Shown one piece after another: positions 27,421 through 53,719 of a stretch of DNA of 64,000 nt; within the stretch, counting starts at the first letter, position 1; each line of letters starts with the position of its first letter. The notes below the pieces were generated by a model. The model did not search any database, had not been told where the DNA came from, and worked only from the letters and a program-made list of their open reading frames with translations. The stretch spans positions 186,001-250,000 of the forward strand of contig JAEINT010000007.1 in assembly GCA_016342745.1 (NCBI GenBank), in the 5' to 3' direction. Made by a program: the position numbers and the translations under genes. Origin of the DNA: Labilibaculum sp. (GTDB lineage Bacteria; Bacteroidota; Bacteroidia; Bacteroidales; Marinifilaceae).

Positions 27421-30400
27421 TTAAAAGTTTAGCGATACACCAAAAATTACTTTACCGGCAATTGGATATAATCCACGATCAACACCTTGTCTAGCGTTAT
27501 TTGAACTACCAGCTTCAGGATCTAAACCTTCGTAATCTGTAAAAGTGAAAAAGTCGTCAAGTGAAACGAATACTCTAGCACGATCAATACCTGTTTTTTG
27601 CAGGATGTCTGATGGTAAAGTATACCCAACTTGAATTTGTTTAATTCTCATATATGATCCATCAGAAACCATTAAGTCACTACGATAAACATAGTCGCTT
27701 GAATTGTTTGCAGCAGGACGACTCGCATTAGTATTTGATGGAGTCCAACGATCGTCAAACATAAACTTAGGCTTGTTTGAGAATGGTCTGTCAGAACGGA
27801 ACCAACCCATAAACACATCATTCCCTTGCGAGCCTTGTAAGAACAGGTTAAAGTCAAAACCTTTGTATTGAGCATTAAATGTTGCTCCATAAAGGTAGTC
27901 TGCATGAGGATCACCAATGTAAGTCTGATCTGCATCAGATATTTCACCATCTTTATTAACATCTACAACGATAACATCACCATTTGTAGGATCAATACCA
28001 TTGGTTTTATAACCTTTAAAGTACCAAATAGGAAGACCTTCTTCGAACCATGTTAAATCATGACCACGTAAGTTATCACCTTTTACTGGAGAATCAACGT
28101 CAAGTCTTGTTACTTCGTTATCAAGAGTAGATAAATTTAAATTTACACTGTATTTAAATTCGTGATCTCTATTGTTGTATCCCAATTCAAAGTCAAAACC
28201 TTTATTAGTTACATCACCAACATTCATAATTGGGAAATCATTACCTGTTGATAAAGGTCCCGAACCTGTCGTTAAAAGATCTTTTGTTGTTTTATTATAA
28301 TAATCCATAGCGAAAGATAATTTTCCGCTCAAGGCTCTTAAGTCAAAACCAATATCTAATTGTTCTGTAGTTTCCCATTTAAGATCAGGATTAATTAACT
28401 TGTCAATTTCAGCTCCTGGTTGATATACATCATCAGCTCCTGGATATTGAGCGCCAAAAACATAAAATTCTTGACCTTCGTTACCTGGGATATTAGAACG
28501 ACTTCCGTTTTCTCCCCAACTAGCTCTTAATTTTAAATAATCAATACCTTGAAAGTCAAAGAAATCTTCTTCAGAAATAGTCCAACCCGCAGAAACAGCA
28601 GAGAAAACAGCTGCTTGATTATCAACTGGGAATACATCAGCAGCATCACGTCTAAGTGAAACTTCTAACATATATCGGTTAAGGTAGTTGTATGATAAAC
28701 GACCAAAGAAAGAGGTCATAGTGTGGTTTACATACCCACCACCTGTACGATCAAATTCATTTGAAGTAGTATAACCTTGGTATGCATATTGGTCACCTTC
28801 TTTAATAAGTGGAGCAGAATGCATTGTGTAATCAGGTGCTTGATATTCTTCAGCTGAATAACCTGCTAAAACAGTAAAGTCATGATCGCCAAATGTTTTG
28901 TTATAAGAAGCAAAATTTTCCCATAACCATGTGTACCATTTGTTGATATTATCATCTACATAGGTATCAGAGTTTTGACTTTCTGCAGAGAAATAATATT
29001 TAGGAGCCCAAGAGTGATCCGTCTGATAAGTCAAATCAAGACCGGCTCTAGATGTAAAAGTTAATCCTTTTACAGGCTTAATAGTGGCATAAACATTTCC
29101 AAGAATTTTATCTTGAACAATGTTATTTCTATAAGTATCAAGTAAAGCTAATGGATTTGCTGTTTCACCTGTAACATACTCTGGTAGGCCGTAATATTTA
29201 CCATTACTATTCTGTAGAATCGTATTTCCACCATCCAATAAATCTTGAACTCTTTGTGGAGTACCATCGTAAGTTGTTTGAGTTAGAGGATCAAGAAGAA
29301 GTGCAAAGTTAACTGCTCCACGATACTCATCATCCTCACCAATATATTTCTGCTTGGAGTGAGAAAAACTAAAGTTGTTTCCTACTTCTAACCAATCTTT
29401 AAGTTGACTTTTTACGTTTGCACGTGCAGTAAAACGTTCGTATTTCGCTTTGTCTCCACCAACAATACCGTCTTGACCATAGTATGATCCAGAAATTAGA
29501 TAAGTTGTTTTTTCACTACCACCAGAAAAGCTTAAGTGATGCTTTTGCATTGGAGCAACTTCGAAAATTTCATCTAGCCAATCTGTATCAGTACCATTTA
29601 AGGTTACGGTACCGGCGCCAGATTCTTGCATCCATTGTTGATACTCACTTGCGTTCATTACTTCCATATCACTTCTTGATGATTGGAATCCGTACTGAAA
29701 GTCGTAAGAGATTTTAGATGATCCAGCCTTACCCGTTTTTGTTGTGATTAAGATAACACCATTTGCACCTTCTGTACCATAAATAGCAGCAGAAGCAGCA
29801 TCTTTAAGAACTTCCATAGATGCAATGTCAGCAGGGTCAATGTTATTGATATCACCAGTTTTCATACCATCAACAATAAACAAAGGATTTGAATTTCCAT
29901 TTGAGTTGACACCACGAATTCTGATTTTTGCTCCAGCACCTGGAGATCCTGATGTTGACAGGATAGAAACACCAGCAGTTTTACCTTGAATAGCTTGATC
30001 GGCTCTTGAAACTGGAACGTTTTGGATATCCTCCGATTTAATACTAGAAATAGATCCAGTTACTAAGCTTTTCTTTTTCACACCATATCCAACAACCACA
30101 ACTTCATCCATGCCTATTGCATCCTCAAGCATAATTACATTAAGCTGTACTTGATCAGCAACAAGAATTTCTTGACTGGTGTAACCAATAAAACTATACA
30201 CAATTACATCTTCAGCACTAGCGAAAATGGTATAATTTCCGTCAATGTCGGATACAGTACCTGTAGTTGTACCTTTAAGAGATATATTAACTCCAGGCAA
30301 ACCAAAACCAGATGAATCTGAAATTTTTCCAGATATTTCTTTGTTTGAGTTCTGCCCAAATATGATGGCTACATTGCAAAGGACCATCAGTAGTAGCATT

Positions 30401-30504
30401 GTTGGCTTAAGAAGCCAGTTACTCTTTTTTTGCTTCCCTGTTTGTAGGCAATGTGAGGGAGCATTAAAATTTTCAGATTTTTTCATAAAATTAAATTGAT
30501 TCAT
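27421..30504 (-). CDS. SusC/RagA-family TonB-dependent glycan importer
   Basis: This outer-membrane 22-strand barrel imports oligosaccharides with SusD. After a long basic n-region and signal peptide (LLLMVLCNVAIIFGQ) come the carboxypeptidase-D-like domain (ISGKISDSSGFGLPGVNISL), the TonB box region (MDEVVVVGYGVKKK), the plug (PADIASMEVLKDAASAAIYG) and the barrel ending VIFGVSLNF. Three in-frame ATGs compete: 30528, 30504 and 30486. The ATG at 30504 lies in an 18-base block repeated in the duplicated leader, and the one at 30486 gives MKKSENF; 30504 is used here but is not certain. Length is about 1027 residues. Confidence 0.93.
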   Translation of the reverse strand: MNQFNFMKKSENFNAPSHCLQTGKQKKSNWLLKPTMLLLMVLCNVAIIFGQNSNKEISGKISDSSGFGLPGVNISLKGTTTGTVSDIDGNYTIFASAEDVIVYSFIGYTSQEILVADQVQLNVIMLEDAIGMDEVVVVGYGVKKKSLVTGSISSIKSEDIQNVPVSRADQAIQGKTAGVSILSTSGSPGAGAKIRIRGVNSNGNSNPLFIVDGMKTGDINNIDPADIASMEVLKDAASAAIYGTEGANGVILITTKTGKAGSSKISYDFQYGFQSSRSDMEVMNASEYQQWMQESGAGTVTLNGTDTDWLDEIFEVAPMQKHHLSFSGGSEKTTYLISGSYYGQDGIVGGDKAKYERFTARANVKSQLKDWLEVGNNFSFSHSKQKYIGEDDEYRGAVNFALLLDPLTQTTYDGTPQRVQDLLDGGNTILQNSNGKYYGLPEYVTGETANPLALLDTYRNNIVQDKILGNVYATIKPVKGLTFTSRAGLDLTYQTDHSWAPKYYFSAESQNSDTYVDDNINKWYTWLWENFASYNKTFGDHDFTVLAGYSAEEYQAPDYTMHSAPLIKEGDQYAYQGYTTSNEFDRTGGGYVNHTMTSFFGRLSYNYLNRYMLEVSLRRDAADVFPVDNQAAVFSAVSAGWTISEEDFFDFQGIDYLKLRASWGENGSRSNIPGNEGQEFYVFGAQYPGADDVYQPGAEIDKLINPDLKWETTEQLDIGFDLRALSGKLSFAMDYYNKTTKDLLTTGSGPLSTGNDFPIMNVGDVTNKGFDFELGYNNRDHEFKYSVNLNLSTLDNEVTRLDVDSPVKGDNLRGHDLTWFEEGLPIWYFKGYKTNGIDPTNGDVIVVDVNKDGEISDADQTYIGDPHADYLYGATFNAQYKGFDFNLFLQGSQGNDVFMGWFRSDRPFSNKPKFMFDDRWTPSNTNASRPAANNSSDYVYRSDLMVSDGSYMRIKQIQVGYTLPSDILQKTGIDRARVFVSLDDFFTFTDYEGLDPEAGSSNNARQGVDRGLYPIAGKVIFGVSLNF

Positions 30505-30556
30505 TAGCGTATTATGATTTAATTCCAAAAGGAGAGGACCAACATATCCTTATGGA
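30479..30556 (-). promoter_or_regulatory. susC leader stem-loop, copy 1
   Basis: In the RNA sense, a 9-bp stem with one mismatch (TCCATAAGG with CCTTTTGGA; plus positions 30548-30556 and 30524-30532) presents a loop containing GTTGGTCCTCT. It is followed by an 18-base block (plus 30497-30514) that includes the candidate start codon at 30504. Both blocks recur in copy 2 with a different stem sequence. The loop is rich in CCTCTCC, similar to an anti-Shine-Dalgarno sequence. No consensus promoter is visible just upstream. Confidence 0.6.
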
Positions 30557-30770
30557 CTTTTATTGATTATTCGTATTGATTGATAGTATTTCATCAATAG
30601 TAGTTTTTAGTGAGATTTTTCAATATTATTTGTGTTGATTAATTGGTTGTCAATGGCTATTGAAATCGTTTTCGGGAGCATCAAAGAATAAAACTTGATA
30701 AAAGTCTATCTTCTCATAATGTTTCAGTTCTAATCGCTTAGTACATTCCTGCCCATATTTGTCTTTTTTT
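30557..30770. other. Spacer between the two susC leader copies
   Basis: No gene is recognised. The leftward frame from copy 2 runs on to 30650 but looks non-coding. The part nearest copy 1 is AT rich and probably holds the susC promoter, although no exact TAnnTTTG element is seen on the minus strand. Confidence 0.4.
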
Positions 30771-30851
30771 TTCATAAATTTGCGATGATTCATTAGCGTA
30801 TTAACAAATGAGTTATTTGCCGAAAGGAGAGGACCAACTTTTCTTTTCGGC
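30771..30851 (-). repeat. susC leader, copy 2, with truncated susC-like start
   Basis: This repeats the susC leader directly after the GH9 stop codon. Identical blocks are plus 30823-30838 (16 bases) and 30786-30803 (18 bases), plus TTTATGAAAAAA at the same in-frame distance. Its own stem is different but still pairs (GCCGAAA with TTTCGGC; 30845-30851 and 30819-30825). The open frame that follows (to 30650) does not continue as SusC, so this is either the remnant of a lost susC or a separate leader RNA. Confidence 0.6.
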
Positions 30852-30855
30852 ATTT

Positions 30856-32580
30856 TTATTTTTTATCATAGGCATCCATTCCAAAGGTTAAGAAAACTAG
30901 TGGCGCATTCCAATTGATTGCAATTTCGTTGGTTGAATAACTACATTGCTCATCAATATATGATTTTGCAGGGTAAGTAGATCTGATGATTTCAGGTCCA
31001 CAATCGTTAAGAACAATTAGGTTTGGTCCACCTACAAGAAATCCTGGTACCGGTTCAACAACAGCATCGGCTGCGGATGGTCGGTGATGGATGTTCATTG
31101 GCGATAAAGAACCAAAACCTGTCACAAAGCAATAAGCTGTTGTATTTCGGCCAAGCAAATAATTTAAACTTTCTCTTGCTGAGTTCAGGTATTTGGAATT
31201 CTTAGTTATTTGGTGTGCAAGTAATTTCATTACGCCTTGATTGGCAAATTCAGAATTGCTTCCCCATTCGTATTTGTTAATTGCGATATGGTAAGGAGAC
31301 TTTTCTTCTTTCCGAATTAACTCATCTGTATGTGCAAGAAATTGAGTTTCGATTGTTTTAAACTCTTCTCTTTTGTTAGATGTTAGTAAGGAGGAAATGC
31401 CCAATGTTGCAACGTCTCTCCAACCAGGTGTTGAAACTTCTAATTTTGATGAATTTAGATGCTTCAAGTAGCTCTTTTCTTCTGTTGCTAAATACATTTC
31501 GGAAGCAGCCCAAAACCATTCATCTTTTAAATTGGTATCATCATAAGCTCCAGTTGAAATGTCAGCGTCTTGATCGTAAATTTCATTTGGGTTTTTAATT
31601 GCCCAGTTCCATGCTTTTTTTGATTGGATCAAACAAGAATCGGCTAATCCAGGTAATTGAGTTTCAAAATCACTAAATACTCGAGAAGCGTAGCTCATGG
31701 TAGCTGCAAAATCGAGAGCTGCCGTTGTGCTTTTTTGAACCAAATACCTCTTGTTTATCGCCTTGTGTGGCATTACAAAATCTTCGAATTTTTTGGTCGT
31801 TAGTTTGTGATAAACACCACCATCAAAAGAATCTTGCATTGTCATCATCCATCTCAAATTGTACAAGGCTTCGTCTAAAATATCAGGAATTGTATTGTTA
31901 GATTCCGGAATGTTTAAGTTTACTTCGTTGAAGTATTCCGAAAATAAATGATAAGACAAAAGCATTGTGTAAGTTGAAATACTACTGTTTACAATGTATT
32001 TATTGTAATCGCCAGCATCATACCAACCTTTTGGAGATGAAATAATACTGTTTTCAGGATGATTTTTATCTGCTGCAGAAGAGTGATAATAGACAATTGT
32101 ATCTGGATGGCCAGCTGGGCGTGCCCATTTGCCACCATGTAAACTGTCAATTTCTATTCCCGAGCGATTCAGGTAGAAAGACTTAAGCGAAGCTTTTGCA
32201 AGTTTCGCATAAGGCCTTTCTGTTATGATTATTTTATTTGAGATGATGCTATCATTAACTACAATATAATACGTTCCCTTGTCTGTTAATTCTGAAAAAT
32301 CAATAGATTGAATTGTGTCACCTGACAATGAACAATACTGTTTTGATCCAGTAGCTTTTTCAAGTAGGATTTTACCTTCACTGTTTTTGATTTGAAACAG
32401 ATTGGCACTTTTTCTGACCATTGCTTTTTTAGGAGCATTGTTTTCATATCCAACTTGATTGGCAAGGATGAGTTGTGCGTTTGCAGGAACAGGCTCATCC
32501 ATTTTTTGATTAGAGCAAGCAACCGCTGTCAATAAAACAGCAAGTAGAAAAGTATATATTTTATAGTCTTTAATATTCAT
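30856..32580 (-). CDS. GH9 endoglucanase lipoprotein
   Basis: This 574-residue lipoprotein (lipobox LTAVAC, Cys22) has an N-terminal Ig-like CelD_N domain (about 35-120: ILANQVGYENNAPKKAMV) and a GH9 (alpha/alpha)6 barrel. The catalytic-base aspartates are Asp188 and Asp191 in GWYDAGDYNKY, and the proton donor is Glu552 in NEIAINWNAP. HHRPSAAD is the usual sugar-binding His segment. GH9 enzymes cut beta-1,4-glucans (cellulose, mixed-linkage glucan) by inversion. It lies 13 bases behind the GH94 gene and just upstream of the duplicated susC leader. Confidence 0.92.
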   Translation of the reverse strand: MNIKDYKIYTFLLAVLLTAVACSNQKMDEPVPANAQLILANQVGYENNAPKKAMVRKSANLFQIKNSEGKILLEKATGSKQYCSLSGDTIQSIDFSELTDKGTYYIVVNDSIISNKIIITERPYAKLAKASLKSFYLNRSGIEIDSLHGGKWARPAGHPDTIVYYHSSAADKNHPENSIISSPKGWYDAGDYNKYIVNSSISTYTMLLSYHLFSEYFNEVNLNIPESNNTIPDILDEALYNLRWMMTMQDSFDGGVYHKLTTKKFEDFVMPHKAINKRYLVQKSTTAALDFAATMSYASRVFSDFETQLPGLADSCLIQSKKAWNWAIKNPNEIYDQDADISTGAYDDTNLKDEWFWAASEMYLATEEKSYLKHLNSSKLEVSTPGWRDVATLGISSLLTSNKREEFKTIETQFLAHTDELIRKEEKSPYHIAINKYEWGSNSEFANQGVMKLLAHQITKNSKYLNSARESLNYLLGRNTTAYCFVTGFGSLSPMNIHHRPSAADAVVEPVPGFLVGGPNLIVLNDCGPEIIRSTYPAKSYIDEQCSYSTNEIAINWNAPLVFLTFGMDAYDKK

Positions 32581-38890: not shown

Positions 38891-41800
38891 ATGAAAAAAA
38901 GAAACCGGATATTGAGTTTAGTAATCATGTTTTGTTGCCTGTTGTCGGTAACACTTCAAGCTAATGCTCAATCTCAATCAGTAAATGGGATTGTATCCGA
39001 TGCAAGCGGATTAAGTATCCCAGGTGTGAGTGTGGTTGAAAAAGGCACACAAAATGGTACTGTTACAAACATTAACGGTGAATTTACAATACATGTTGTA
39101 TCCGAGAATGCAAGCCTTGTATTTTCTTTTGTTGGTTACAAAACAATTGAAATTCCTGTTGATGAAAATAAGGAAATGACCATTACTTTAGAAGAAGACA
39201 TGCTAGGTCTTGAGGAAGTTGTGGTTGTTGGGTATGGTTCTGTAAAGAAGAGTGATTTAACGGGATCTGTTTCATCTGTAAAGATGGACGAGATGCCAAT
39301 GAAACCTGCCAATTCTATTGATGGTCTTTTGCAAGGGCAAAGTGCCGGTGTTCAGGTAATATCATCTTCTGATGATCCGGGAGCTGGATCTACTATTCGT
39401 ATTCGTGGTGGTAGTTCATATCGTGAAGGTAACGAGCCTTTGGTTGTTGTTGATGGATTTCCAATTGGTAAAGCAGGTGCTATCAATCAAATAGCTCCAT
39501 CGGATATAGCTTCTATGGAGATATTGAAAGATGCATCTTCTACTGCTATTTACGGTTCGCGTGGTGCAAATGGTGTGATCATGATTACCACAAAGAAAGG
39601 AACTAAGAATAGAACGGAAGTGAGTGTTTCTCAGCAAAACACAATTTCGGAGTTTACTTCGGATTTAAATTTGTGGCGCGATCCTGTCTTGATGGCTGAA
39701 TTAAGCAACGAATCAAGAACAAACGGAGGATTTGTTCCTTTATATATCGGTGCTAATGATCCTAATGGAGTGTATTATCCATCTGTTTCGGAATTAAAGA
39801 GCGGATCTTGGAAGTACAATACGCGTTGGGATGATGTTGTTTTCCGTAATCCGGTTTCGAATAATACCAATGTGGCAATTCGCAGTCAGAATGAAAACAC
39901 ACAGTTTAGCTTTAGTTCTTCATACTTTACTGATGAAGGTGTTTATATTGACGATGACTATGAAAAATTAAATGCAAATCTAAATGTAATTCATAAGGCA
40001 TTTGACAAATTAACTGTTGGAGCAAATATCCTATTTTCAAAAGGGAAAAGAAACAACAATGGTGGTTTGGCATATTGGAGAAACCCTATTTTTCCAGTTT
40101 ATAATGATGAAGATCCTACAAAAGGATACTATATGGTTGGAACGCAGGATTATTCACATCCAATTGCACTGACCGAGAATAAATCTAATGAATATGAATC
40201 CACTAGTTTCTTAACCTCGGTTTTTGCAGAGGCTCAAATTTTACCTTCGCTAAAATTAAAATCTCAAGTTAACTACAATTCAAGCAGATCAACATCAGAA
40301 TTTTATAATCCTAAGGTTTATACTGAAGATGGAACCTTTAATAATGGTGCTGGTGGTATTGATAATGGAGAATCGAGCGATTTGGTTACAGAATCTTACT
40401 TGACGTTTGATAAGACATTTAACAATGTTCACAAGTTAAATGCAATGGCTGGTTTTTCATATCAATACACTAAAGGACGTAACTCGAGTCTTAGAGCTTA
40501 TGACTTTTTGAATGAATCCTTAAGAAGTGGAAATTTATCTGGAGGAAATCCTGAGAAACAGAGTGTATCTAATTCTCTATCAGAAGAGGTAGTGTACTCA
40601 TGGTACGGAAGATTAAATTATACTTTCGATAATAAGTTGTTGGCAACATTTACCATGCGTGGTGATGCATCGTCTAAATTTGGATCGAATAATCAGTGGG
40701 CTTATTTTCCTTCGGGAGCTGTAGGTTATAAAATGCACAACGAAGATTTTATTAAAGATCTTGGGATTTTCGATGAATTAAAAGTTCGTGCAAGTTATGG
40801 TTTGTCTGGTAATAAAGAACCTATTGGAACCTACTTGATTAACAGTCAGTATGGACAAGATCAATACTATACAGATGGTAATTGGCAAACTACAATTGGT
40901 CCTGGGTACATTGCAAGATGGGATTCTCAAACAGGAAAGAAGTTGTGGGCTGGTATTCCTAATCCAGATTTAAAGTGGGAGAAAACTACTCAGTTTAACC
41001 TTGGAGTTGACTTCGCATTTTTTAACAGACGCTTAAGGGTAACTGCTGACTACTATAACAAAAATACTGACGATTTACTTCGTGAAAGATGGCTTTCTCC
41101 TTCATCGTCTTATGACTTAATGTGGGTTAATGGTGGAGAGATCAAAAATGAAGGTATTGAACTATCAATTGCTTCGGATGTTATTAATAAGAACGACTGG
41201 AAGGTTTCTGGTACATTAATCTTTTCTCGTAACAAAAATGAAGTTGTAAATCTAGGTGACGAATTGGCTTTCGGTTTAAATGCTGATACCAATACGGGAA
41301 TGAAATACGAGTTCAATGCCAATACAATAGAAGCTTTCCGTGCAAAACCTAATATTTTGGGAATTGGCGAAGCAGTTAATGTTTTCTATGGTTACAAGGT
41401 AGATGGAATTGTTCAAAGCGAAGCTGAAGGATTAGCTGCAGGATTAACAGGAAAAGATGCTCAAGCAGGTGAATTTAAATACCTAGACATTAACGAAGAT
41501 GGCGTAGTAGATTTAAATGACCGTACGATTATTGGTGATCCAAACCCAGATTTTACTGCTAGTTTAAATCTTCAGGTAAGCTATAAGAATTTCGATTTGG
41601 CAATGCTTTTCAACGGAAGTTATGGTCAGGATATTTTAAATACCAAAGCTTTCGGTGAACCAGGAAATATGCCACTTCGTTGGACTCAAGATAATACTAC
41701 TAATAAATATCCAAGTTTACGCGATGGTAGAAACTTGTTCATGTCGGATTGGTATGTAGAAGATGGAAGCTACTTAAGATTGCAAAATGTATCTCTAGGA

Positions 41801-41983
41801 TATAATATTCCAGATCTTGGTCTATCATGGTTCAAGCGTGGACGTATCTATATGAATGCAACCAACCTATTTACTATTACTGGTTTCGATGGATACGATC
41901 CAGAAGTAGGTTTGGATGGAGTCTACTGGGGAGGTTATCCTAAATTGAGAAAATGGACATTGGGTGTTGAATTAACATTCTAA
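38891..41983 (+). CDS. SusC/RagA-family TonB-dependent importer of the mannan locus
   Basis: This 1030-residue outer-membrane importer has a signal peptide ending near LQANAQ, the carboxypeptidase-D-like domain (VNGIVSDASGLSIPGVSVVE), the TonB-box region (LEEVVVVGYGSVKKSDLTGS), the plug with DIASMEILKDASSTAIYGS and a barrel ending LRKWTLGVELTF. With SusD it should import manno-oligosaccharides. It differs clearly from the SusC of the beta-glucan locus. It is the first gene of a rightward operon that extends to about 56.3 kb. Confidence 0.95.
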   Translation: MKKRNRILSLVIMFCCLLSVTLQANAQSQSVNGIVSDASGLSIPGVSVVEKGTQNGTVTNINGEFTIHVVSENASLVFSFVGYKTIEIPVDENKEMTITLEEDMLGLEEVVVVGYGSVKKSDLTGSVSSVKMDEMPMKPANSIDGLLQGQSAGVQVISSSDDPGAGSTIRIRGGSSYREGNEPLVVVDGFPIGKAGAINQIAPSDIASMEILKDASSTAIYGSRGANGVIMITTKKGTKNRTEVSVSQQNTISEFTSDLNLWRDPVLMAELSNESRTNGGFVPLYIGANDPNGVYYPSVSELKSGSWKYNTRWDDVVFRNPVSNNTNVAIRSQNENTQFSFSSSYFTDEGVYIDDDYEKLNANLNVIHKAFDKLTVGANILFSKGKRNNNGGLAYWRNPIFPVYNDEDPTKGYYMVGTQDYSHPIALTENKSNEYESTSFLTSVFAEAQILPSLKLKSQVNYNSSRSTSEFYNPKVYTEDGTFNNGAGGIDNGESSDLVTESYLTFDKTFNNVHKLNAMAGFSYQYTKGRNSSLRAYDFLNESLRSGNLSGGNPEKQSVSNSLSEEVVYSWYGRLNYTFDNKLLATFTMRGDASSKFGSNNQWAYFPSGAVGYKMHNEDFIKDLGIFDELKVRASYGLSGNKEPIGTYLINSQYGQDQYYTDGNWQTTIGPGYIARWDSQTGKKLWAGIPNPDLKWEKTTQFNLGVDFAFFNRRLRVTADYYNKNTDDLLRERWLSPSSSYDLMWVNGGEIKNEGIELSIASDVINKNDWKVSGTLIFSRNKNEVVNLGDELAFGLNADTNTGMKYEFNANTIEAFRAKPNILGIGEAVNVFYGYKVDGIVQSEAEGLAAGLTGKDAQAGEFKYLDINEDGVVDLNDRTIIGDPNPDFTASLNLQVSYKNFDLAMLFNGSYGQDILNTKAFGEPGNMPLRWTQDNTTNKYPSLRDGRNLFMSDWYVEDGSYLRLQNVSLGYNIPDLGLSWFKRGRIYMNATNLFTITGFDGYDPEVGLDGVYWGGYPKLRKWTLGVELTF

Positions 41984-42027
41984 TTCAATATTTCAAGAAT
42001 CATTTACAATATTAAAAAGATTTGAAG

Positions 42028-43530
42028 ATGAAGATATTAAATAAAATAGCATTAGGATTAGCTTTTGTAATGGGCTTGGTATCATGCGAAAGTCTGGAGG
42101 TAGAGCCAACAGGTTTTTATTCCGAAGGTAATTTCTATAAAACAGTAGAAGATGCAGAAGCATCGCTATTGTATGCTTATGATGCATTAACATTGGTTAG
42201 TTATGCTCCTGTTACATACTATTTATGTGAATTGGCAACCGATAACAGCATTGTAAAAGCAGATGAAGGAGCAGATGCGCAAGCATTTGTAAATTGGGAA
42301 GTGAATTCTCAGAATGAACTACTTACGCAATATTATCGTTGTGCTTACATTGCCATTAATAGAGCAAATGCAGTAATTGAGAATGTTGAAGGAAGAGGAT
42401 TTAATGAAGAGGACGAAAAACGTTTGTTGGGCGAAGCTTATTTCTTACGCGCATACAATCATTTTAATGTGGTAAGAGCTTTCGGTTTGGCGCCATTGCA
42501 AACCTCGCTAATCGACGAAATGAATGAAACGAATTCACCTCAGGCTGAAAATATGCAAGAGGTTTATACATTCTTAATTGGAGATTTAACCAAAGCAATA
42601 GATAATTTGAACGTAAATCGTGTAGTAGGACGTGCAGATAAAGTTGCGGCTCAGGCGTTGTTGGCTGAGGTATATTTATTTGCAGCCTCAGCAAAAGAGA
42701 GTGGAGTGCCTAAATACGATGCCATTACTGAAAGTGCTGATAATTTGTATGCAAAAGCTGCTGAATATTCGGGATATGTTTTAAACGAGCAATCAGAATA
42801 TGCACATGATGCTGATTTGCAAAATATTTATGATGTCAATTCACCTGACGGATCAGAGCATATTTTCATTTTGTCGATGGATCGTTCAGGAACAGAGGAA
42901 GGTGACTACTCGAAGTTGTCGAAATATTTTATTCCTTGGGTTGCAGGTGGTACAATCTACCTTCAAAATACCGATGGATCTTTCTCACCTACTCATGATG
43001 GTTGGAGTGTAATTCAAACAACTGGTGAGTTGCTATCAAAATACGAAGCTACAGATATGCGTCGTACCGAATTGTTTGTTTCTGAAATTTACGATGAGAA
43101 CAACAATTCGTCAGGAACTGTTGCCGATGGAACTATTCCTTATGCATTTACAAGAAAGTATATCGATACAGAGTTTTCGGGAGATAAAACAAGTACACGT
43201 CCTTATTTAATTCGCTATTCAGAAGTTCAATTGGTATACGCCGAAGCTACTGCTAATGCAAGTGGTTTAGAACAGTACAATTCAGTACGTCGTCGTGCTG
43301 GAGTAAGCGAATTGGCTGATCTTTCGGGCCTATCTGCAGATGAGTTCCGTACATTGGTTGTGGAGGAACGTCAGCGCGAGTTGGCTTACGAAGGAGATCG
43401 CCTTTGGGATTTACGACGTAAAAATATCGTACAGGAAAAAGTTACGCAGGCAGCAGGATTATCTCCTGAAGCATTAGCTTTCTATCCAGTCCCTCAGCGT
43501 GAATTAGATTTAAATCCTAACATTAATTAA
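42028..43530 (+). CDS. SusD/RagB-family lipoprotein of the mannan locus
   Basis: This 500-residue SusD-like lipoprotein has a lipobox (FVMGLVSC), an N-terminal TPR region (ESLEVEPTGFYSEGNFYKT, then LLGEAYFLRAYNHFNVVRAF) and the C-terminal SusD signature (VVEERQRELAYEGDRLWDLR, then YPVPQRELDLNPNIN). A TTG two codons earlier is possible, but the ATG is preferred. It lies 44 bases after SusC and 8 bases before the next lipoprotein gene, so all three should be made together. Confidence 0.95.
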   Translation: MKILNKIALGLAFVMGLVSCESLEVEPTGFYSEGNFYKTVEDAEASLLYAYDALTLVSYAPVTYYLCELATDNSIVKADEGADAQAFVNWEVNSQNELLTQYYRCAYIAINRANAVIENVEGRGFNEEDEKRLLGEAYFLRAYNHFNVVRAFGLAPLQTSLIDEMNETNSPQAENMQEVYTFLIGDLTKAIDNLNVNRVVGRADKVAAQALLAEVYLFAASAKESGVPKYDAITESADNLYAKAAEYSGYVLNEQSEYAHDADLQNIYDVNSPDGSEHIFILSMDRSGTEEGDYSKLSKYFIPWVAGGTIYLQNTDGSFSPTHDGWSVIQTTGELLSKYEATDMRRTELFVSEIYDENNNSSGTVADGTIPYAFTRKYIDTEFSGDKTSTRPYLIRYSEVQLVYAEATANASGLEQYNSVRRRAGVSELADLSGLSADEFRTLVVEERQRELAYEGDRLWDLRRKNIVQEKVTQAAGLSPEALAFYPVPQRELDLNPNIN

Positions 43531-43538
43531 GAAGAACG

Positions 43539-45248
43539 ATGAAAAAGTTATTAAATATATTTTTGATAGTTCTGGTAGTTTTTATGACTGCCTGTACTTC
43601 AGATCCTTTGGAGGATTTGGACGGAAACGGATGGAAAAAGGAGAGAAATGTTGTATCTCTTTTATTGGAAGGTCAGATTGGCACATCACTAATTGAGAGA
43701 GACATTGACGAGGCTAAGATTCAGGTTTACGCTAAGTTTGAAAACATAGCAGACCTTTCCAATGTAGAAATTAAGAGTATTGATTTGGCTTATGGTGCTA
43801 GTTCAGTAAGTACTGTAGGAGCTACTCTTGATTTTACAACTGCTGATACTACTGCAATTATTTCAGTAGTATCTGGATCTGGTTCAACGCTGGATTGGAA
43901 AGTGAGTTTGAAGCCATTTAAATCTGATTTGGAAGGCGAGTGGTATGTTGGAGAAATTCGTATGTATTGCGATATGTTTACCTGGGAAAGCTGGGGATGG
44001 GAAAAGAATGAGAAAATTACTGATTACCTACCTGAGTTAAGTCCTGAATTAGATAATGTATTCACTTTTACTGTTGAAGGTGCCGATGCAAAAGGGAATC
44101 CTTTTGGGAGCTATGAACACAGTGCGGGTCCTGACGGTATTTTTGGTAACTATGGCGATGCTGGAAAAGGATGGGATTTTAATGAAAGATTCCGTAAAAT
44201 TCCAATGGGTAGTGGAAGTTGGTTACGTGATTTCGAACGTAATAAAGTTATCATTACTGATGAAAACAATATTGAGCATGAATTGGATCTTGAGGTTTCA
44301 GCAGAAACTGAAGGTGTAACGCTAAAAGCTGCTTTGCCTTATTTAGCAAACCTTTTTAATTGGAGTGATACAGATTGGTCTTATGAAGAATTGGCTCACA
44401 TGTCGAACCCAATGTGGTACAATCTTACAAGAGAAAGAGTATTGCAAACAGGAAATGATATTACTGGTTTAACAGTGAAAGATCAAGTTGGTGATGCTGT
44501 AGTTGATGCGGCGAACAAAACTGTTACAGTTAAAATAGAAGATAATGGTGCTGATAAGTCAGCTATCGAGATTATTAGCATTGGTACTTCTTATGGTGCT
44601 TCAGCAGATAAAGCTGTTGCGGAAATGCTTGATTTTTCTACTGATAATTCTACTCAGATCACAATTACTTCTGAGGCTGGTGAATCAGCAGTGTGGACTA
44701 TTAAATTGGAGATTGATCTTGATATTAGTGATGTTTCAATTGCTGGAACATGGAATATTGGTGAAATTGGAATTTATGCAGATTTATTTACCTGGGAAAG
44801 CTGGGGATGGGACAAGTCTGAAAAATTAACCAACTATCTGTCAAATGCTAACCCAGAGCTTGATAACACAATCACATTTAATGTAGATGGAAAAGATGGA
44901 GCTGGACAGCCTTACGGAACTTACGAAAACAATGCGGGTACCGATGGTTTGAATGCAGACTTTACTTATGATGGTACCGATTGGCCAGAAACAGATTTTA
45001 ATGATAGATATAGAAAAGTGCCAACAGGTACAGGAACATGGATTCTTGAAGGAGAAACTGTGAAAATTACTGATGCTGGTGGAGTTGAGCACACACTAAC
45101 TCTTGAGATAAAAACTGAAACAGAAGTTGCTTTAACAACAGAAGTAGAATTTTTAGCAGACTTGTTTGACTGGGATGTATCAAATTATAGTTATGAAGAG
45201 GTTGCTCACATGTCGAAGAAGATGTGGTATAATCTAAATAAGCAATAA
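43539..45248 (+). CDS. Putative surface glycan-binding lipoprotein with duplicated module
   Basis: This 569-residue predicted lipoprotein (FMTAC) is not recognised as an enzyme. It consists of two copies of an Ig-like segment (about 35-132 and 305-402; both carry YGAS followed by LDFxT) plus a larger domain (133 to about 302, and 403-569). Both large domains share GEI, MFTWESWGW or LFTWESWGW, PELDN, F(N/D)(E/D)RYRKxP, an EHEL/EHTL motif and EExAHMSxxMWYN. The position after SusD is that of a surface glycan-binding protein, and the many exposed aromatics fit sugar binding. Binding to mannan is inferred from position only. Confidence 0.75.
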   Translation: MKKLLNIFLIVLVVFMTACTSDPLEDLDGNGWKKERNVVSLLLEGQIGTSLIERDIDEAKIQVYAKFENIADLSNVEIKSIDLAYGASSVSTVGATLDFTTADTTAIISVVSGSGSTLDWKVSLKPFKSDLEGEWYVGEIRMYCDMFTWESWGWEKNEKITDYLPELSPELDNVFTFTVEGADAKGNPFGSYEHSAGPDGIFGNYGDAGKGWDFNERFRKIPMGSGSWLRDFERNKVIITDENNIEHELDLEVSAETEGVTLKAALPYLANLFNWSDTDWSYEELAHMSNPMWYNLTRERVLQTGNDITGLTVKDQVGDAVVDAANKTVTVKIEDNGADKSAIEIISIGTSYGASADKAVAEMLDFSTDNSTQITITSEAGESAVWTIKLEIDLDISDVSIAGTWNIGEIGIYADLFTWESWGWDKSEKLTNYLSNANPELDNTITFNVDGKDGAGQPYGTYENNAGTDGLNADFTYDGTDWPETDFNDRYRKVPTGTGTWILEGETVKITDAGGVEHTLTLEIKTETEVALTTEVEFLADLFDWDVSNYSYEEVAHMSKKMWYNLNKQ

Positions 45249-45258
45249 AAAATTAATA

Positions 45259-45290
45259 ACCAGTTGCAGATTTGTCTGCAACTGGTATTT
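45259..45290 (+). terminator. Hairpin after the SusCD-lipoprotein unit
   Basis: ACCAGTTGCAGA and TCTGCAACTGGT pair perfectly (12 bp, loop of 4). The trailing sequence ATTTAAAAAT has few T, so it is more likely a partial terminator or 3' stabiliser inside the operon. Confidence 0.6.
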
Positions 45291-45302
45291 AAAAATATTA
45301 TC

Positions 45303-46823
45303 ATGAAAACAGGACTATTATTTACCGGGTTACTTTCTCTATTTCTTGCTACTACAGCTTGTGATAGTGATAACAACAATTCGGACTTTATTATAAAAAA
45401 CAGAGAGGTCAATATTACAAGTAATTTGATTTCATCTGATTTTGTTGGAAATGGTGCACAATGGGGAGGATACGAAAGTCTTCAAGATTGGATTGGTGCA
45501 GAAACTTTAAGCGAGGCTGATTGGAATACTTTGTATCAGCGAATCGATTTCATGCGTCCTCCTTTTTTGCGTATCATGACGAACGCAAATTCATCATACG
45601 ATATTAATGGTACTTACGATGAGACGACCAAAACAGCAACTTTATTCAAAATGTTGGATTATGCTCAAAGTCGTAATATCGAAATTACCTACGGTGAGTG
45701 GGGACATCATTATCTAAATGGAAATTTAGAAGAAATTAACACCGAATGGGTTGCTAACTCTGTTAAGTTTTTAAATCATTTAGTGAACGAGAAGGGATAC
45801 ACATGCATTAAAACAGTTAATATCATTAACGAGCCTAATGGAGACTGGTCTTCAGCAAATGGAAACTATACTGCCTGGAAGAATACTCAGGATGCTTATG
45901 TAGCCGAAATGGTTAATTACGATCTATCTGGAGTAAAATTAATGGGGCCAGATATCGCAATTTTCGAAAGCACAAATCAAACCAATTGGATTACCAATGC
46001 GAAGAATGATTTGGGTGATGCTATTGGCTTATACGATATTCACGTTTATCCAAAGCAATTGATTGTACGTAATGGCGATTATACTGAAATGCTTCAGGCT
46101 TATCGTGATGCAACGCCAGCCGATAAACGAATTGTCTTAGGTGAGATTGGATTTAAATATACTGAGGTTGATGCAGACTTAAAAGCTGAAAATGAGGAGT
46201 TGATTGAGGCAGATCCTTATGCTGGAGAAGATTCAAACATGATGATTTACAAGGCATTTTATGGTATTGATATGGCAGATGCGATTATTCAATCAATGCG
46301 TGCTGGTTTCTCTGGTGCTTTGGTTTGGGATATGGATGATGCCATGTATGTTAGCCCGAAAGATGACAACTATAATGTTGATCAAATGAAAAGATGGGGA
46401 TTCTGGAATATCCTTGGTGAAGATCATACTGGTGATGCATCTGATGAGGAGATTCGTCCATATTTCTACCCAGTATCTTTACTATGTCGTTACTTTCCTG
46501 CTGGCGCTGATATTTATGATATCAACTTGCCAAATAAAAAAGGAGTTCGTGCAATTATGGGCGAAAAAGATGGCAAGTATACCATAGCCATAGTGAATTC
46601 TCATTACGTTACTTATCCAATCAACTTGAAATCTGATTTCTTATCAAGTGTTAGCATGGACAAGTATAGCTACAAGTCAAAAGCTGACGGTACTTTCGTT
46701 GGGTCTGTAGATGAAAATGGATTTGCTACACCAGCAGAGAATAGTGTGAATTTAGATTTCAATAAAGGTGTTGAAATGACGCTTGAAGGCGAATCATTTA
46801 TCCTATTTACAAATATGGATTAA
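45303..46823 (+). CDS. Clan GH-A glycoside hydrolase lipoprotein, family not assigned (paralog 1)
   Basis: This 506-residue lipoprotein (lipobox ATTAC, Cys20) has the features of a retaining clan GH-A barrel: acid/base Glu177 in NIINEPNGDWSS and nucleophile Glu281 in VLGEIGFKY. HVYPKQ provides the usual strand-6 His. A C-terminal beta-sandwich (about 415-506) follows, as in GH30, GH39 and similar families. The family cannot be assigned by eye. It is a clear paralog of the gene at 48113. Its place between SusCD and GH130 suggests an exposed mannan- or glucomannan-cleaving enzyme. The ATG at 45303 is preferred because the signal peptide starts there. Confidence 0.8.
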   Translation: MKTGLLFTGLLSLFLATTACDSDNNNSDFIIKNREVNITSNLISSDFVGNGAQWGGYESLQDWIGAETLSEADWNTLYQRIDFMRPPFLRIMTNANSSYDINGTYDETTKTATLFKMLDYAQSRNIEITYGEWGHHYLNGNLEEINTEWVANSVKFLNHLVNEKGYTCIKTVNIINEPNGDWSSANGNYTAWKNTQDAYVAEMVNYDLSGVKLMGPDIAIFESTNQTNWITNAKNDLGDAIGLYDIHVYPKQLIVRNGDYTEMLQAYRDATPADKRIVLGEIGFKYTEVDADLKAENEELIEADPYAGEDSNMMIYKAFYGIDMADAIIQSMRAGFSGALVWDMDDAMYVSPKDDNYNVDQMKRWGFWNILGEDHTGDASDEEIRPYFYPVSLLCRYFPAGADIYDINLPNKKGVRAIMGEKDGKYTIAIVNSHYVTYPINLKSDFLSSVSMDKYSYKSKADGTFVGSVDENGFATPAENSVNLDFNKGVEMTLEGESFILFTNMD

Positions 46824-46868
46824 GCCAGAAATCTTAATTGAATCAAGAAAACTAATATAAAAAATATT

Positions 46869-46918
46869 CATGATTTTGGAGTTAAAATGTTCAAGTTTTG
46901 AATAACTCTAAAATCATG
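46869..46918 (+). promoter_or_regulatory. Long stem-loop covering a possible GH130 start codon
   Basis: Arms 46869-46884 and 46903-46918 pair over 16 bp with one G-T pair; the 18-base loop holds a smaller TTCAA/TTGAA stem. The right arm ends exactly with the ATG at 46916. If this ATG is used, its translation would be masked; if the ATG at 46943 is used, the stem-loop is a 5' leader element. No T-run follows, so it is not a simple terminator. Confidence 0.6.
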
Positions 46919-47956
46919 ACTTCAGAACAAAATAATAAACGGATGAAATTAATTAAGCACCCAAATAATCCCATTTTAAAACCACATGCTACAAACTATT
47001 GGGAGAACCTAGTGGTTTGTAACCCTGGAGTATGGTACGAAAACGGTAAGTTTACCATGTTGTATCGTGCGGCAGGTGATGATGAGCAGCATTATATCCG
47101 TATGGGAACAGCAGTGAGTGAAGATGGAGTAAACTTTGATAGAGTTTCTGATGAGCCTACGTTTGGGCCAAGTGTTGATGGTCCTGACCAAGGTGGTGTT
47201 GAAGATCCTCGTATTGTGAAATTTGGAGATGAGTTTTATGTAACCTATGCATATCGTCCTCATTATCCAGGACAATACTGGAAATTTGCACATGATGTAA
47301 TTCTTTTGCCAGAAGTAGGTGCTGATTCGCCTGCAGTGATGAAAGATAACATTGCAAATTCTGGTTTAGCAGTAACCAAAGATTTTAAAAATTGGAGACG
47401 TTTAGGTCGCGTTACAGATACGAATCTTGATGATCGTGATGTGATTATTTTTCCAGAGAAAATTAATGGGAAATATGTAATGCTTCACCGCCCTAAACAA
47501 TGGATTGGTGAAGAGTATGGTTGTGATACTCCAGCTATTTGGATTCGTTTTTCTGAGGATTTGATGGTGTGGAATGAGCCTAGTGAATTGCTTATTGCAG
47601 GAATTAATGGAACTTGGGAAGAGAAAGTTGGAGGAAGTACGCCACCACTAAAAACAGATGAAGGTTGGTTGGTTATTTATCATGGTGTTGAAAATGGCGG
47701 AGAAGGTCATTATCGAGTAGGAGTTGCTCTTTTGGATTTAGAAGATCCAACGAAAGTTATTGCTCGTGCTAGTGATTGGATTATGCAACCAGAACATGAT
47801 TATGAGATGGAAGGATTCTATAAAGGATGTGTGTTTCCAACTGGTAATGTAATTGTTGACGATACCTTATATGTTTATTACGGTGGAGCCGACAAATATG
47901 TTGGTTTAGCTACTTGTAGTGTAAAAGAAATCCTGGAATTTGTAAAAAAAGGATAA
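46916..47956 (+). CDS. GH130 beta-mannoside phosphorylase
   Basis: This cytoplasmic enzyme should phosphorolyse beta-mannosides to mannose 1-phosphate. Its five-bladed propeller pattern is clear: HPNNPILKPHATNYWE, YRAAGDDEQHYIRMG, and GGVEDPRIVKFGDEFYVTY, where Asp97 of the EDPR motif is the expected general acid, then GYCHGV-type strand IYHGVENGGEGHYRVGVAL and YYGGADKYVGLA. The ATG at 46916 gives 346 residues; the ATG at 46943 gives 337 and matches the usual family start (MKLIKHPNNPIL). A TTG at 46898 is less likely. GH130 members act on Man-Glc, mannobiose, or beta-1,2-mannobiose; the subgroup is not certain. Confidence 0.92.
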   Translation: MTSEQNNKRMKLIKHPNNPILKPHATNYWENLVVCNPGVWYENGKFTMLYRAAGDDEQHYIRMGTAVSEDGVNFDRVSDEPTFGPSVDGPDQGGVEDPRIVKFGDEFYVTYAYRPHYPGQYWKFAHDVILLPEVGADSPAVMKDNIANSGLAVTKDFKNWRRLGRVTDTNLDDRDVIIFPEKINGKYVMLHRPKQWIGEEYGCDTPAIWIRFSEDLMVWNEPSELLIAGINGTWEEKVGGSTPPLKTDEGWLVIYHGVENGGEGHYRVGVALLDLEDPTKVIARASDWIMQPEHDYEMEGFYKGCVFPTGNVIVDDTLYVYYGGADKYVGLATCSVKEILEFVKKG

Positions 47957-48112
47957 ATTAGTTAGTTGTTGTTAGAGGATTGGGTTTTCTTTTATTTCGT
48001 GTTGTTTGAATAAAGGGAAATCCATTTCTTGTAAGTAAAGCTGATTGTTGCTCTGTTGATTGTAGATGCGGGGCTGATTTTAAATAGTTATAGACAGTAA
48101 AGTTAGATACAG

Positions 48113-49630
48113 ATGCAAAACAGATTTTTAATGATCGTAATTTCGATCCTCTTTTTTTCTTGCCAAGCGCAACACGAAAATGTTATTCGTATTTATTCCG
48201 ATCAAGCTATTTCAAGCGATTTTATTGGTAATGGTGTACAGTGGTCGGCATATCCGCATGCAGATACAGAAAATGCTGAATGGGGCAAATTGATGACCGA
48301 TGAAAAATGGGATATGAATTTCCATAGATTGGATTACATGCAGCCTAAGTTATTTAGGGTGTTCGATCAGGCCAATTGGAGATATCTGGTTGGATTTGAT
48401 AAAAAAGGAGAGCCTATCCTTGATTTTTCAACACCTGAAGTTAAAGCTGTTGAGAAGATTTTGAAGTATGCACAGGAAAATAACATAACTGTACTTTTGG
48501 GTGAAGTTGGTACACCTTATAAAGTACATGATTTAAATGAAGGTCATTCAGATAAATTTTCAGGTGCAGATGATCCAAAATGGATTAATGGGATAGTTGC
48601 TTATTTGGATTATTTGATCAATACTCGCGGTTATACATGTATCAAATATTTCAATTTTATTAATGAGCCAAATGGCGATTGGTCGAGTGTAAATGGTGAT
48701 TTTAATAAATGGCGTGCTGGTGTTGAATTATTGGTAGAAGGTATAAAAGCTAAAGGGCTAGATAAAATGGTTTCCATAGCAGGGCCAGATGCTGTTACAC
48801 GTTACGATAATCCAAATTCGACATACACAGGTTCGGGTTGGGTGGAAGAAACCGCAAAGCAATTAGATGATATTGTAGGAATTTACGAAGTACACGACTA
48901 TACAGAATATGGTTTGGTGAGAAGTGGAGGTTTTAAGAAGTACCATGGAGATATTGCCAAATTTGCAAAACAAGTTAATAAGCAAATCATTTTTGGAGAG
49001 TTAGGTTTTAGTCGTAATGGTCAAGAGAACCAAGACAAAACTAAAAAAGATCCGTTTGCTTGTGAAGATAGTCAGATGGATGTGTTTAATTTCAGTTATG
49101 GAATTGATATGGCTGATGCAGCAATTCAATCGATGAATGCTGGTTATTCAGGAGCCGCCGCCTGGGCTTTAGATGATGCGATGCATACTTGTGGTGATTT
49201 GGGTAACAAAAATGAACTGAAAAGATGGGGAATGTGGAACAGTTTGGGAACAGAGATTTGCAACAATCCAGCTGATGAAAATATGAGACCTTGGTTCTAT
49301 TCTTGGTCGCTTTTGTGTCGTTATTTTCCAACAGGAAGTACAATTGTTAAGTCTGATTCTACAGGAATAGAAGGTCTTCGATTAACAACAGGTATTTTTA
49401 AGAATGATATTACAGTTGCTATCGTTAATAACTCTTCGGAAGACAATACCATTGCTATTTCTATACCAACAGCTAAAGAGCTTAAAAAATATCTTTATGT
49501 GGATGGAAAAAGAGCTGTTGATGAAAATGAATTTCCTATTGCTGTAGAGTCTGGCATTAGTGCGAAAGACATTATGGAATTAAAGGTTCCTGCCAATAGT
49601 TTTATTCTGTTGACTTCAATTAACTATTAA
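48113..49630 (+). CDS. Clan GH-A glycoside hydrolase lipoprotein, family not assigned (paralog 2)
   Basis: This 505-residue lipoprotein (lipobox LFFSC, Cys17) is a paralog of the enzyme at 45303. Shared features are the start DQAISSDFIGNGVQWSAY, the acid/base Glu185 in NFINEPNGDWSS, the nucleophile Glu296 in IFGELGFS, FSYGIDMADAAIQSMNAGYSGA and the SLLCRYFPTGS turn before the C-terminal beta-sandwich. The aligned copies diverge strongly outside these motifs, so they may differ in substrate. It is separated from GH130 by 156 bases with no obvious promoter or terminator. Confidence 0.8.
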   Translation: MQNRFLMIVISILFFSCQAQHENVIRIYSDQAISSDFIGNGVQWSAYPHADTENAEWGKLMTDEKWDMNFHRLDYMQPKLFRVFDQANWRYLVGFDKKGEPILDFSTPEVKAVEKILKYAQENNITVLLGEVGTPYKVHDLNEGHSDKFSGADDPKWINGIVAYLDYLINTRGYTCIKYFNFINEPNGDWSSVNGDFNKWRAGVELLVEGIKAKGLDKMVSIAGPDAVTRYDNPNSTYTGSGWVEETAKQLDDIVGIYEVHDYTEYGLVRSGGFKKYHGDIAKFAKQVNKQIIFGELGFSRNGQENQDKTKKDPFACEDSQMDVFNFSYGIDMADAAIQSMNAGYSGAAAWALDDAMHTCGDLGNKNELKRWGMWNSLGTEICNNPADENMRPWFYSWSLLCRYFPTGSTIVKSDSTGIEGLRLTTGIFKNDITVAIVNNSSEDNTIAISIPTAKELKKYLYVDGKRAVDENEFPIAVESGISAKDIMELKVPANSFILLTSINY

Positions 49631-49710
49631 ATTTGAATTGATAAAATTGGCATAATGGAGTAATACAAATAGGGCTGACTAGGCTTTAGATTTGTATACT
49701 TTAGACTTGC

Positions 49711-49718
49711 TATTTTTG
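49711..49718 (+). promoter_or_regulatory. Weak promoter-like element before the symporter gene
   Basis: TATTTTTG fits TAnnTTTG and TTTG is at 49691-49694, but the spacing is 16 rather than about 19 bases and the leader would be very short. Confidence 0.3.
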
Positions 49719-49735
49719 TCCTGATACTTATAAAA

Positions 49736-51370
49736 ATGAATATTAGTACAATCGATATTACCATTCTTATTGTCTTTATCATCGGAATTATCTGGTGGGC
49801 ACTTAAGAATGGAAAAAGTCAGGATTCGACTTCCTATTTTCTTGCAGGAAGGAACATGACTTGGCCTGTAGTTGGGCTTTCCTTATTCGCAGCAAGTGTA
49901 TCCAGTTCAACCTTAATGGGACATTCAGGAGAAGGATTCATTACAGGAATTGCGGTTTTCAATTATAATTGGATTTCCGTTTTAGTTATGGTGTTTTTCG
50001 CCCTGTTTTTTCTTCCATTTTATATTAAATCGGGCATTTTTACCATGCCTGAATTTTTAGAAAAACGATTCGATAAACGTTCTAGATATTATTTTTCTTT
50101 CATTACCATTTTTGGGAATGTATTTTTAGATGCAGCAGCTACACTTTATACTGGTGCGCTAATTATCAAGTTGATATTTCCGGAAGTAGACATGTTTTGG
50201 ATCATTGTAATTATGGCTGTTGTAGCGGGTTCGTATACCATTATTGGTGGACTTTCTTCGGCTATTAATGCTGATATGATTCAGGCTACCATTCTTATTA
50301 TTGGTTCGGGTATTCTTTATTTTTATGCCTTAGATGAAATTGGTGGATGGGAAGAATTATACAGTCGTTTTGGTGATGGTGTATGGTTGAAATTAACTCG
50401 TCCAATTAATGATCCTACTGTACCTTGGTTAGGCATGTGGATCGGAATACCAATTTTAGGATTCTATTTCTGGGCAAATAACCAAGTAATGGTTCAGAGA
50501 GTTCTTTCTGCTAAATCAATCGATCATGGTCGTAAAGGTGTTTTGTTTGTAGGCTTCTTATACTTGTTTACGCTATTTATTTTTATCCTTCCAGGATTAA
50601 TCGGTAGAGGTATCAACTTATTTGGAGTTGAAAACCTGCCAACCGAAATTATTGATGGTAGTACATTGAAATCTGCCTTTGGAATAAATACCGATCAGGT
50701 TTATCCTCGATTAATCGTAAAATTATTACCAGTTGGTTTAATTGGATTGATTTTAGCTGCTATGATATCAGCCTTGACATCTACATTGAGTGCAACTTTA
50801 AGTTCTGTTTCTACCTTGTTTACCATGGATTTTTATGCTCGATATGATAAAAATGCAGATAGTAAAAAGTTGGTTAAAGTAGGCCGAATTACTTCTGTTG
50901 TTGTATTGATCTTTGCTGTTATTTGGGCTCCTTTTATAGCCAATTTTGATTCTCTTGTTTCCTACTATCAGGAAATTGTTTCGTATTTGGCACCTCCAAT
51001 TGTAGGAACATTTTTCCTTGGTTTGTTTTGGAAGCGTTCGAACGAATTTGGTGCATTGTGGGGATTAATTTCAGGAATTTTAGTTGCTGCAATTCTCATG
51101 ATTTCAAAATATGTTTTAGATGTTGAAATACCATATCACTTCTTGCTAATTGCTCCTGTAGTAATGATTTTTAGTATGAGTATTAATGTAATTGTGAGTT
51201 TATCAACTCATTTGCCAGATGCTGAAAAAGTAGCTCAAAATACATGGACAGTTCAGGTTTGGAAAGATGAAACGGAAGAGTTAAAAGGAGTGGTTTGGTA
51301 CAAGAATTTCCGAGTCCTTTCTATACTATTGGTAATCGCATGTTTTACCATGTATTTCATTTTTATTTAA
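49736..51370 (+). CDS. Sodium:solute symporter (SSS family)
   Basis: This 544-residue inner-membrane transporter has about 13 membrane helices. The N-terminal region holds YFLAGRNMTWPVVGLSLFAASVSS in parts (FLAGRNMTWPVVG, SLFAASVSSSTLMGHSGEGF), the typical substrate and sodium site of SGLT-like SSS proteins. GLILAAMISALTSTLSATLSS carries the TM8 serines and threonines that in relatives hold sodium. Located in the mannan locus, it likely imports mannose, glucose or short manno-oligosaccharides from the periplasm for GH130 or glycolysis. A strong terminator follows. Confidence 0.9.
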   Translation: MNISTIDITILIVFIIGIIWWALKNGKSQDSTSYFLAGRNMTWPVVGLSLFAASVSSSTLMGHSGEGFITGIAVFNYNWISVLVMVFFALFFLPFYIKSGIFTMPEFLEKRFDKRSRYYFSFITIFGNVFLDAAATLYTGALIIKLIFPEVDMFWIIVIMAVVAGSYTIIGGLSSAINADMIQATILIIGSGILYFYALDEIGGWEELYSRFGDGVWLKLTRPINDPTVPWLGMWIGIPILGFYFWANNQVMVQRVLSAKSIDHGRKGVLFVGFLYLFTLFIFILPGLIGRGINLFGVENLPTEIIDGSTLKSAFGINTDQVYPRLIVKLLPVGLIGLILAAMISALTSTLSATLSSVSTLFTMDFYARYDKNADSKKLVKVGRITSVVVLIFAVIWAPFIANFDSLVSYYQEIVSYLAPPIVGTFFLGLFWKRSNEFGALWGLISGILVAAILMISKYVLDVEIPYHFLLIAPVVMIFSMSINVIVSLSTHLPDAEKVAQNTWTVQVWKDETEELKGVVWYKNFRVLSILLVIACFTMYFIFI

Positions 51371-51403
51371 TAGATAGCATATCGTTAGATTAATATGATT
51401 ATA

Positions 51404-51445
51404 AAATACGGTTTGCTTCAATTAGAACAAACCGTATTTGCATTT
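51404..51445 (+). terminator. Intrinsic terminator after the symporter gene
   Basis: A perfect 12-bp stem (AAATACGGTTTG with CAAACCGTATTT) and a T-rich tail GCATTTTTAAT. It would split the mannan locus into two transcripts or attenuate the downstream genes. Confidence 0.75.
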
Positions 51446-51471
51446 TTAATTTAGCCTTTAAATTTATATCA

Positions 51472-53621: not shown

Positions 53622-53633
53622 AAATTAAAAGAT

Positions 53634-53684
53634 CCGGTAAATTGTAAACAATGTGAGGTTTGTAATTTATCGGTTTCTTTTTTT
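53634..53684 (+). terminator. Intrinsic terminator after the mannanase gene
   Basis: Sixteen pairs with three G-T wobbles (starting CCGGTAAATTG and ending TTTATCGG) and the tail TTTCTTTTTTT, close behind the stop codon. Confidence 0.75.
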
Positions 53685-53719
53685 AAGTAAATTAGACTCT
53701 GAAATATAAAAAAAACAAG

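Follow-up and report, generated by a model that had tools for sequence, protein, structure and literature searches.

What are the two tandem copies of one element doing upstream of a susC gene in Labilibaculum, and which of their strands is active? The window, i.e. the whole stretch of 64,000 nucleotides that was analysed, contains a PUL on the - strand with the order NrtR-like regulator, MFS transporter, GH94, GH9, copy 2, copy 1, susC, susD, GH30, GH3 and GH3. The spacer between the copies carries at 30655-30675 (-) the partly palindromic motif CGAAAACGAT, which is conserved in most tandem genomes and, judged from its sequence, may be a susC operator. A second PUL is located adjacent to this locus (38891-56296, + strand) and comprises SusC/SusD, GH130, a GH5-like protein, an SSF transporter and a GH2 mannosidase-like protein (beta-mannan type).

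The original prediction described both copies as leader RNA of susC, and the tandem arrangement itself was found as claimed. The copies have in common a loop of 16 bases and a block of 18 bases containing ATGAATCA, and ATGAAAAAA is equally spaced in both. The 16-base block GTTGGTCCTCTCCTTT is located at 30528-30543 and 30823-30838 of the - strand; a search of the window with up to 3 mismatches yielded 4 matches compared with 0.37 expected, and only the two copies matched exactly. The sequence AATACGCTAATGAATCA is present without mismatch at 30497-30513 and 30786-30802 (both -), and in both copies the second ATG (ATGAAAAAA) follows 18 nt after the first one. The stems are unlike in sequence and nevertheless pair, in 8/9 positions in copy 1 (one T-T) and in 7/7 positions in copy 2, where the stem can be extended to 11 positions if a single A-C of the susC strand is included. 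No susC is located behind copy 2, which starts 3 nt past the GH9 stop codon.

The likely start codon of susC is ATGAAAAAATC at 30486. In copy 1 of two relatives (G030 and G032; L054 and L056) a 5-nt deletion turns ATGAATCA, located 18 nt upstream of this codon, into ATGAATTAA and cuts it off by a frameshift; because the deletion shifts the frame from the first ATG, only the second ATG can serve as the susC start in these genomes. The candidate pairing block of copy 1 ends about 10 nt ahead of the likely start codon (ATGAAAAAA). An N-terminal extension of SusC through the hairpin, as considered for the single-copy genomes, was rejected because stops interrupt the frame elsewhere.

Selection on structure, which had been proposed from the differing but pairing stems, was borne out by stem covariation across relatives. 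Five pairs were changed on both sides, and 87% of the cells of the structure (stem plus tested pseudoknot) were paired compared with 29-51% in slid versions. The sense-leader reading was mostly wrong with respect to the strand. All non-Watson-Crick stem cells of copy 2 across the relatives (12/12) are A-C on the susC strand and G-U on the + strand, the 12 cells being largely inherited together and corresponding to about four or five independent events. Since the imperfect pairs of copy 2 are all G-U there, the fold is assigned to the + strand. The mean folding energy of copy 2 was -18.4 kcal/mol on the + strand vs. -9.8 on the other strand, and the z-scores for copy 2 of the window were -6.3 (+) vs. 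-2.3 (-). The 5' stem-loop of copy 2 pairs as well, and the wobble pairs in this region are standard on the + strand. Altogether 97.6% of the cells of the predicted RNA were paired in 11 distinct relatives.

Further features on the + strand are in line with a gene of its own. The sequence TAnnTTTG (nn = AA, CT or TT), a candidate -7 box of a Bacteroidota primary-sigma promoter, occurs at constant spacing in all 15 single and second copies and in 0/10 first copies; no clear -33 box could be detected on the + strand ahead of copy 2. The block TTTATGAAAAAA overlaps the -7 box TAAATTTG; its fixed spacing, recorded in the original prediction, is explained by the conserved TAnnTTTG of the + strand, the opposite strand of which reads TTTTTTCATAAATTTG. 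At the other end, copy 2 shows the features of an intrinsic terminator, a G+C-containing stem-loop and a T tract (TTTTTATTTTTT), and these are weaker in copy 1. From the promoter box to the U tract the RNA would be about 76-80 nt long, both ends being predicted. On the susC strand, a short open frame (MP[KE][RG]xVGP...) crosses the hairpin in 14/15 single and second copies. As it is missing from all first copies it does not explain the loop, and it is probably incidental. Judged from these features, copy 2 resembles a gene on the + strand (about 30775-30864) for an antisense sRNA of about 78 nt facing susC; of the two options given for copy 2 in the original reading, the independent RNA is the one that stands.

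Features of the duplicated element and its surroundings in the window, with strand and supporting evidence.
Feature	Position	Strand	Evidence
susC (SusC/RagA TonB-dependent importer)	27421..30486	-	Pfam, TIGR04056, leader comparison
-7 position in copy 1, degraded (TAAAATTA replacing TAnnTTTG)	30486..30493	+	lost in 10/10 first copies
Target block of copy 1 in the susC leader, TAATACGCTAATGAATCA	30497..30514	-	99% identical to copy 2 block, 10 genomes
Hairpin of copy 1 in the susC leader, loop GTTGGTCCTCTCC	30524..30556	-	complementary to copy 2 terminator loop
Spacer between copies, conserved AAACGAT motif, putative susC operator/promoter	30655..30690	-	alignment
-7 promoter box of the predicted copy 2 sRNA gene, TAAATTTG	30775..30782	+	T run 30764-30772 ahead of box
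Predicted sRNA: 5' stem-loop with seed, terminator hairpin, U tract	30787..30864	+	fold z-scores, 97.6% of cells paired
Seed of the predicted sRNA, GAUUCAUUAGCGUAUU	30787..30803	+	complementary to the copy 1 block at the susC start
Copy 2 terminator hairpin with loop region GGAGAGGACCAAC	30818..30852	+	terminator scan, G-U pairs
T tract of the copy 2 terminator	30853-30864	+	T at 6-7 of 8
GH9 gene upstream of copy 2	30856..32580	-	Pfam

The two copies have diverged unevenly. In the ten tandem genomes compared, they are 100% identical in the loop and 99% in the start block, but 45-59% in the stems and 43% in the promoter region; the sole difference in the start block (G036) still permits a G-U pair. 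The stem of copy 1 is degraded with true mismatches in 22/88 cells, and its T tract is weaker than that of copy 2. On the sequence level the features are divided between the copies: the putative promoter, the fold and the terminator are kept by copy 2, and both candidate pairing sites by copy 1. The seed of copy 2 can form 15-16 continuous pairs with the copy 1 of the same genome in 10/10 tandem genomes. Pairing of the copy 2 RNA with the leader in copy 1 was calculated at -74 kcal/mol, compared with -24.5 +/- 3.8 kcal/mol when the remaining 34 susC leaders were used, part of this complementarity being inherited because the copies share ancestry. Other candidate sites for the seed with 2 mismatches numbered 29 vs. 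19 in the reversed control.

To define the distribution of the element we searched 59 genomes of the family (Marinifilaceae); six genera carry it, always at this PUL and at no other site in these genomes. The tandem pair is present in 11 genomes including that of the window (g1, g2 with the one genome G003, and g11), with 255-296 nt between the loops, and a single copy is present in 5 genomes (g10, g12 and g13). Model scores were at least 69.9 bits at this locus vs. about 25 elsewhere in the family. The element is therefore not a general susC leader but is confined to one PUL in one family; it is absent from the 34 other susC leaders of the window's genome, which contains the two copies and no further paralogs. 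No match was obtained in 108 other genomes across the order. In the other families sampled the model found no match and a pattern search gave one chance-looking match; a contig scan of 84,980 species returned Labilibaculum only, in addition to one coding-looking chance match. At the locus itself there was no Rfam match.

The body of SusC is mosaic across the relatives. In three genomes (G032, G034 and G037; L097, L098 and L096) the SusC behind the same leader is 52-59% identical to that of the window, while the neighbours reach 80% or more; from these identities it seems that the SusC body was exchanged, with the leader and the putative sRNA left in place. We also tried to date the duplication by a SusC tree. 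This approach was abandoned, since the mosaicism spoils the tree and it cannot tell one-copy-first from two-copies-first; a single copy could also stem from a deletion between the repeats. In one MAG (L078, G033) GH9 is absent and copy 2 is located directly behind GH94, which shows that it does not belong to the GH9 gene. The SusC of this MAG is 96% identical to that of the window despite the MAG's assignment to another genus, and a transfer or a mixed MAG is possible.

Taken together, we consider it likely from these sequence comparisons that copy 2 makes an sRNA which represses susC through pairing with copy 1, regulator gene and target having been split by a tandem duplication. Copy 2 would be the sRNA gene of the + strand with the TAnnTTTG promoter, the 5' seed and the terminator hairpin, and copy 1 would be the 5' leader of susC bearing both sites complementary to the sRNA, the block at the start codon and the hairpin loop. 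The first contact would probably be made between the terminator loop of copy 2 and the hairpin loop of copy 1; the sRNA would then zip along the block near the site of initiation, which would hinder ribosome binding. Because of this hindrance SusC would be made only at a low level of sRNA. Within this model, retention of the copy 1 hairpin is explained only by the loop-loop step. The suggestion that copy 2 competes with copy 1 for a regulator is not required, as the opposite strand of copy 2 most likely encodes the regulator. In the one-copy relatives the RNA would span the start of susC as a normal cis-antisense RNA of the DonS kind, and the tandem duplication would have parted regulator gene and target and converted it into an sRNA encoded by a neighbour. 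We give somewhat better than even chances to this origin, in which one tandem duplication took in both a cis-antisense RNA and its target, and the copies became a promoter-bearing sRNA gene lacking a target gene and a promoter-less target leader, with only the two pairing sites identical, in three genera.

In copy 1 the sense strand is that of the mRNA, and the invariance of loop and block there would also suit two sense leader elements with a protein, the ribosome or some unrelated sRNA as binding partner, the terminator look of the + strand being a by-product. Loop and block could even form a pseudoknot together in all copies; the chance probability of this is 0.03-0.07, and the pseudoknot was dropped in favour of the antisense reading, which covers both conserved pieces. 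A partner of this kind was not apparent: a search for a separate sRNA gene complementary to the loop yielded only scattered 1-mismatch matches, fewer than in the reversed control and therefore not above chance. An anti-Shine-Dalgarno core, proposed for the loop in the original prediction, fails because its CTCTCC half differs between genera (GTTGGCCCAATCC, GTTGGTCCAGTCC, GTTGGCCCTGTCC), although a role of the loop as a pairing site is probable. Since copy 2 folds well on the + strand only and the TAnnTTTG box with its variable nn is conserved on that strand, we regard sense elements as improbable. With a strong terminator right at the end of GH9, the + strand hairpin could instead be a mere terminator against stray antisense transcription into GH9/GH94, without sRNA function. 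This is more doubtful still, because the promoter box, the 5' stem-loop and the seed are conserved as well and the loop would have no need to match copy 1.

Among the alternatives to repression in trans, the least unlikely is that the antisense RNA of copy 2 acts mainly in cis, on read-through from GH94-GH9 into susC. In the single-copy genomes the leader is located directly behind GH94 or GH9, suggesting one operon, and the promoter-like sequence TTTG-N18-TAAATCTG between the copies on the susC strand is weak in the window's genome. In several g11 genomes, however, this sequence is present, and action in cis leaves the identical loop and block of copy 1 unexplained while the rest diverged; we therefore consider it unlikely. 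A deletion scar, i.e. a non-functional remnant of a second susC, had been offered as one origin of copy 2, the reading frame of which leads nowhere and which resembles a susC leader. The tandem pair is kept in 10 genomes besides that of the window, in three genera, and stem, seed and promoter of copy 2 are constrained while ATGAAAAAA decays; we see next to no room for this origin.

Antisense RNAs of susC are already known from gut Bacteroides, and the route of repression by DonS is described as unknown. DonS-type antisense RNAs lower susC expression in Bacteroides (PMC7366714, PMC10994844) and those of PULs have a length of 78-128 nt (PMC7366714). The predicted RNA would resemble them as a short RNA facing the 5' part of a susC homolog, with a similar predicted length and an expected repression (PMC7366714, PMC10994844). 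The single-copy form (g10, g12, g13) shares the position as well, since it overlaps the susC 5' end on the other strand, whereas the window has a duplicated RNA gene that lies about 290 nt upstream of the susC start. In addition, the PUL is of the NrtR-like/GH94/GH9 type and belongs to a different family; the likeness to DonS concerns the layout. By analogy the element may work like a DonS-type antisense RNA, and an overlap of copy 2 with the susC transcript would depend on the transcription start of susC.

The FopS sRNAs of Bacteroides repress susC translation and pair near the start codon (PMC11697453). With FopS and GibS of Bacteroides thetaiotaomicron the predicted RNA shares a 5' seed for a site near the susC start codon, a 3' terminator hairpin and the proposed action in trans on susC, but it has one locus and one evident target in contrast to a family of 14 members (PMC11697453, PMC7366714). 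Moreover, its 5' seed is located within a predicted stem-loop, and no RRM_1 (RbpB-type) protein was found in the window's genome. The missing Rfam match at the locus and the presence of only two copies in the genome speak against membership in the FopS family. In the plasmid systems CopA/CopT and RNAI/RNAII, complementary loops on two hairpins are combined with a zipping stretch, as in copy 1 and copy 2, and UUGG in the loop of the susC mRNA fits the YUNR motif. In contrast to these plasmid systems, the predicted RNA would control a chromosomal nutrient importer, and regulator and target would be the copies of a tandem duplication.

The geometry of the single-copy element recurs in the window's genome among ten susC genes with a long N-terminus (L016, L019, L024, L036, L037, L039, L042, L043, L045 and L046). 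CAAAnnTA is located exactly 7 nt before the ATG in 7/10 of these genes vs. 0/25 of the other susC genes, and a terminator on the opposite strand lies upstream of the start in all ten. A Pfam check of two of them showed an STN domain in one and a weak one in the other, with FecR in the preceding gene of both. By this pattern the ten loci likely carry further DonS-type antisense RNAs.

In the literature searched we found no description of such an RNA in this family. What is new here is a tandem arrangement specific to this lineage, together with the proposed separation of the regulator from its target. The covariation gives strand and structure of a putative susC antisense RNA, and the divergence of the copies shows what a regulator needs (promoter, fold and terminator) as opposed to a target (start-site block and loop). 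If true, the locus would clearly exemplify how, in nature, a trans-acting sRNA can be born from a cis-antisense RNA.
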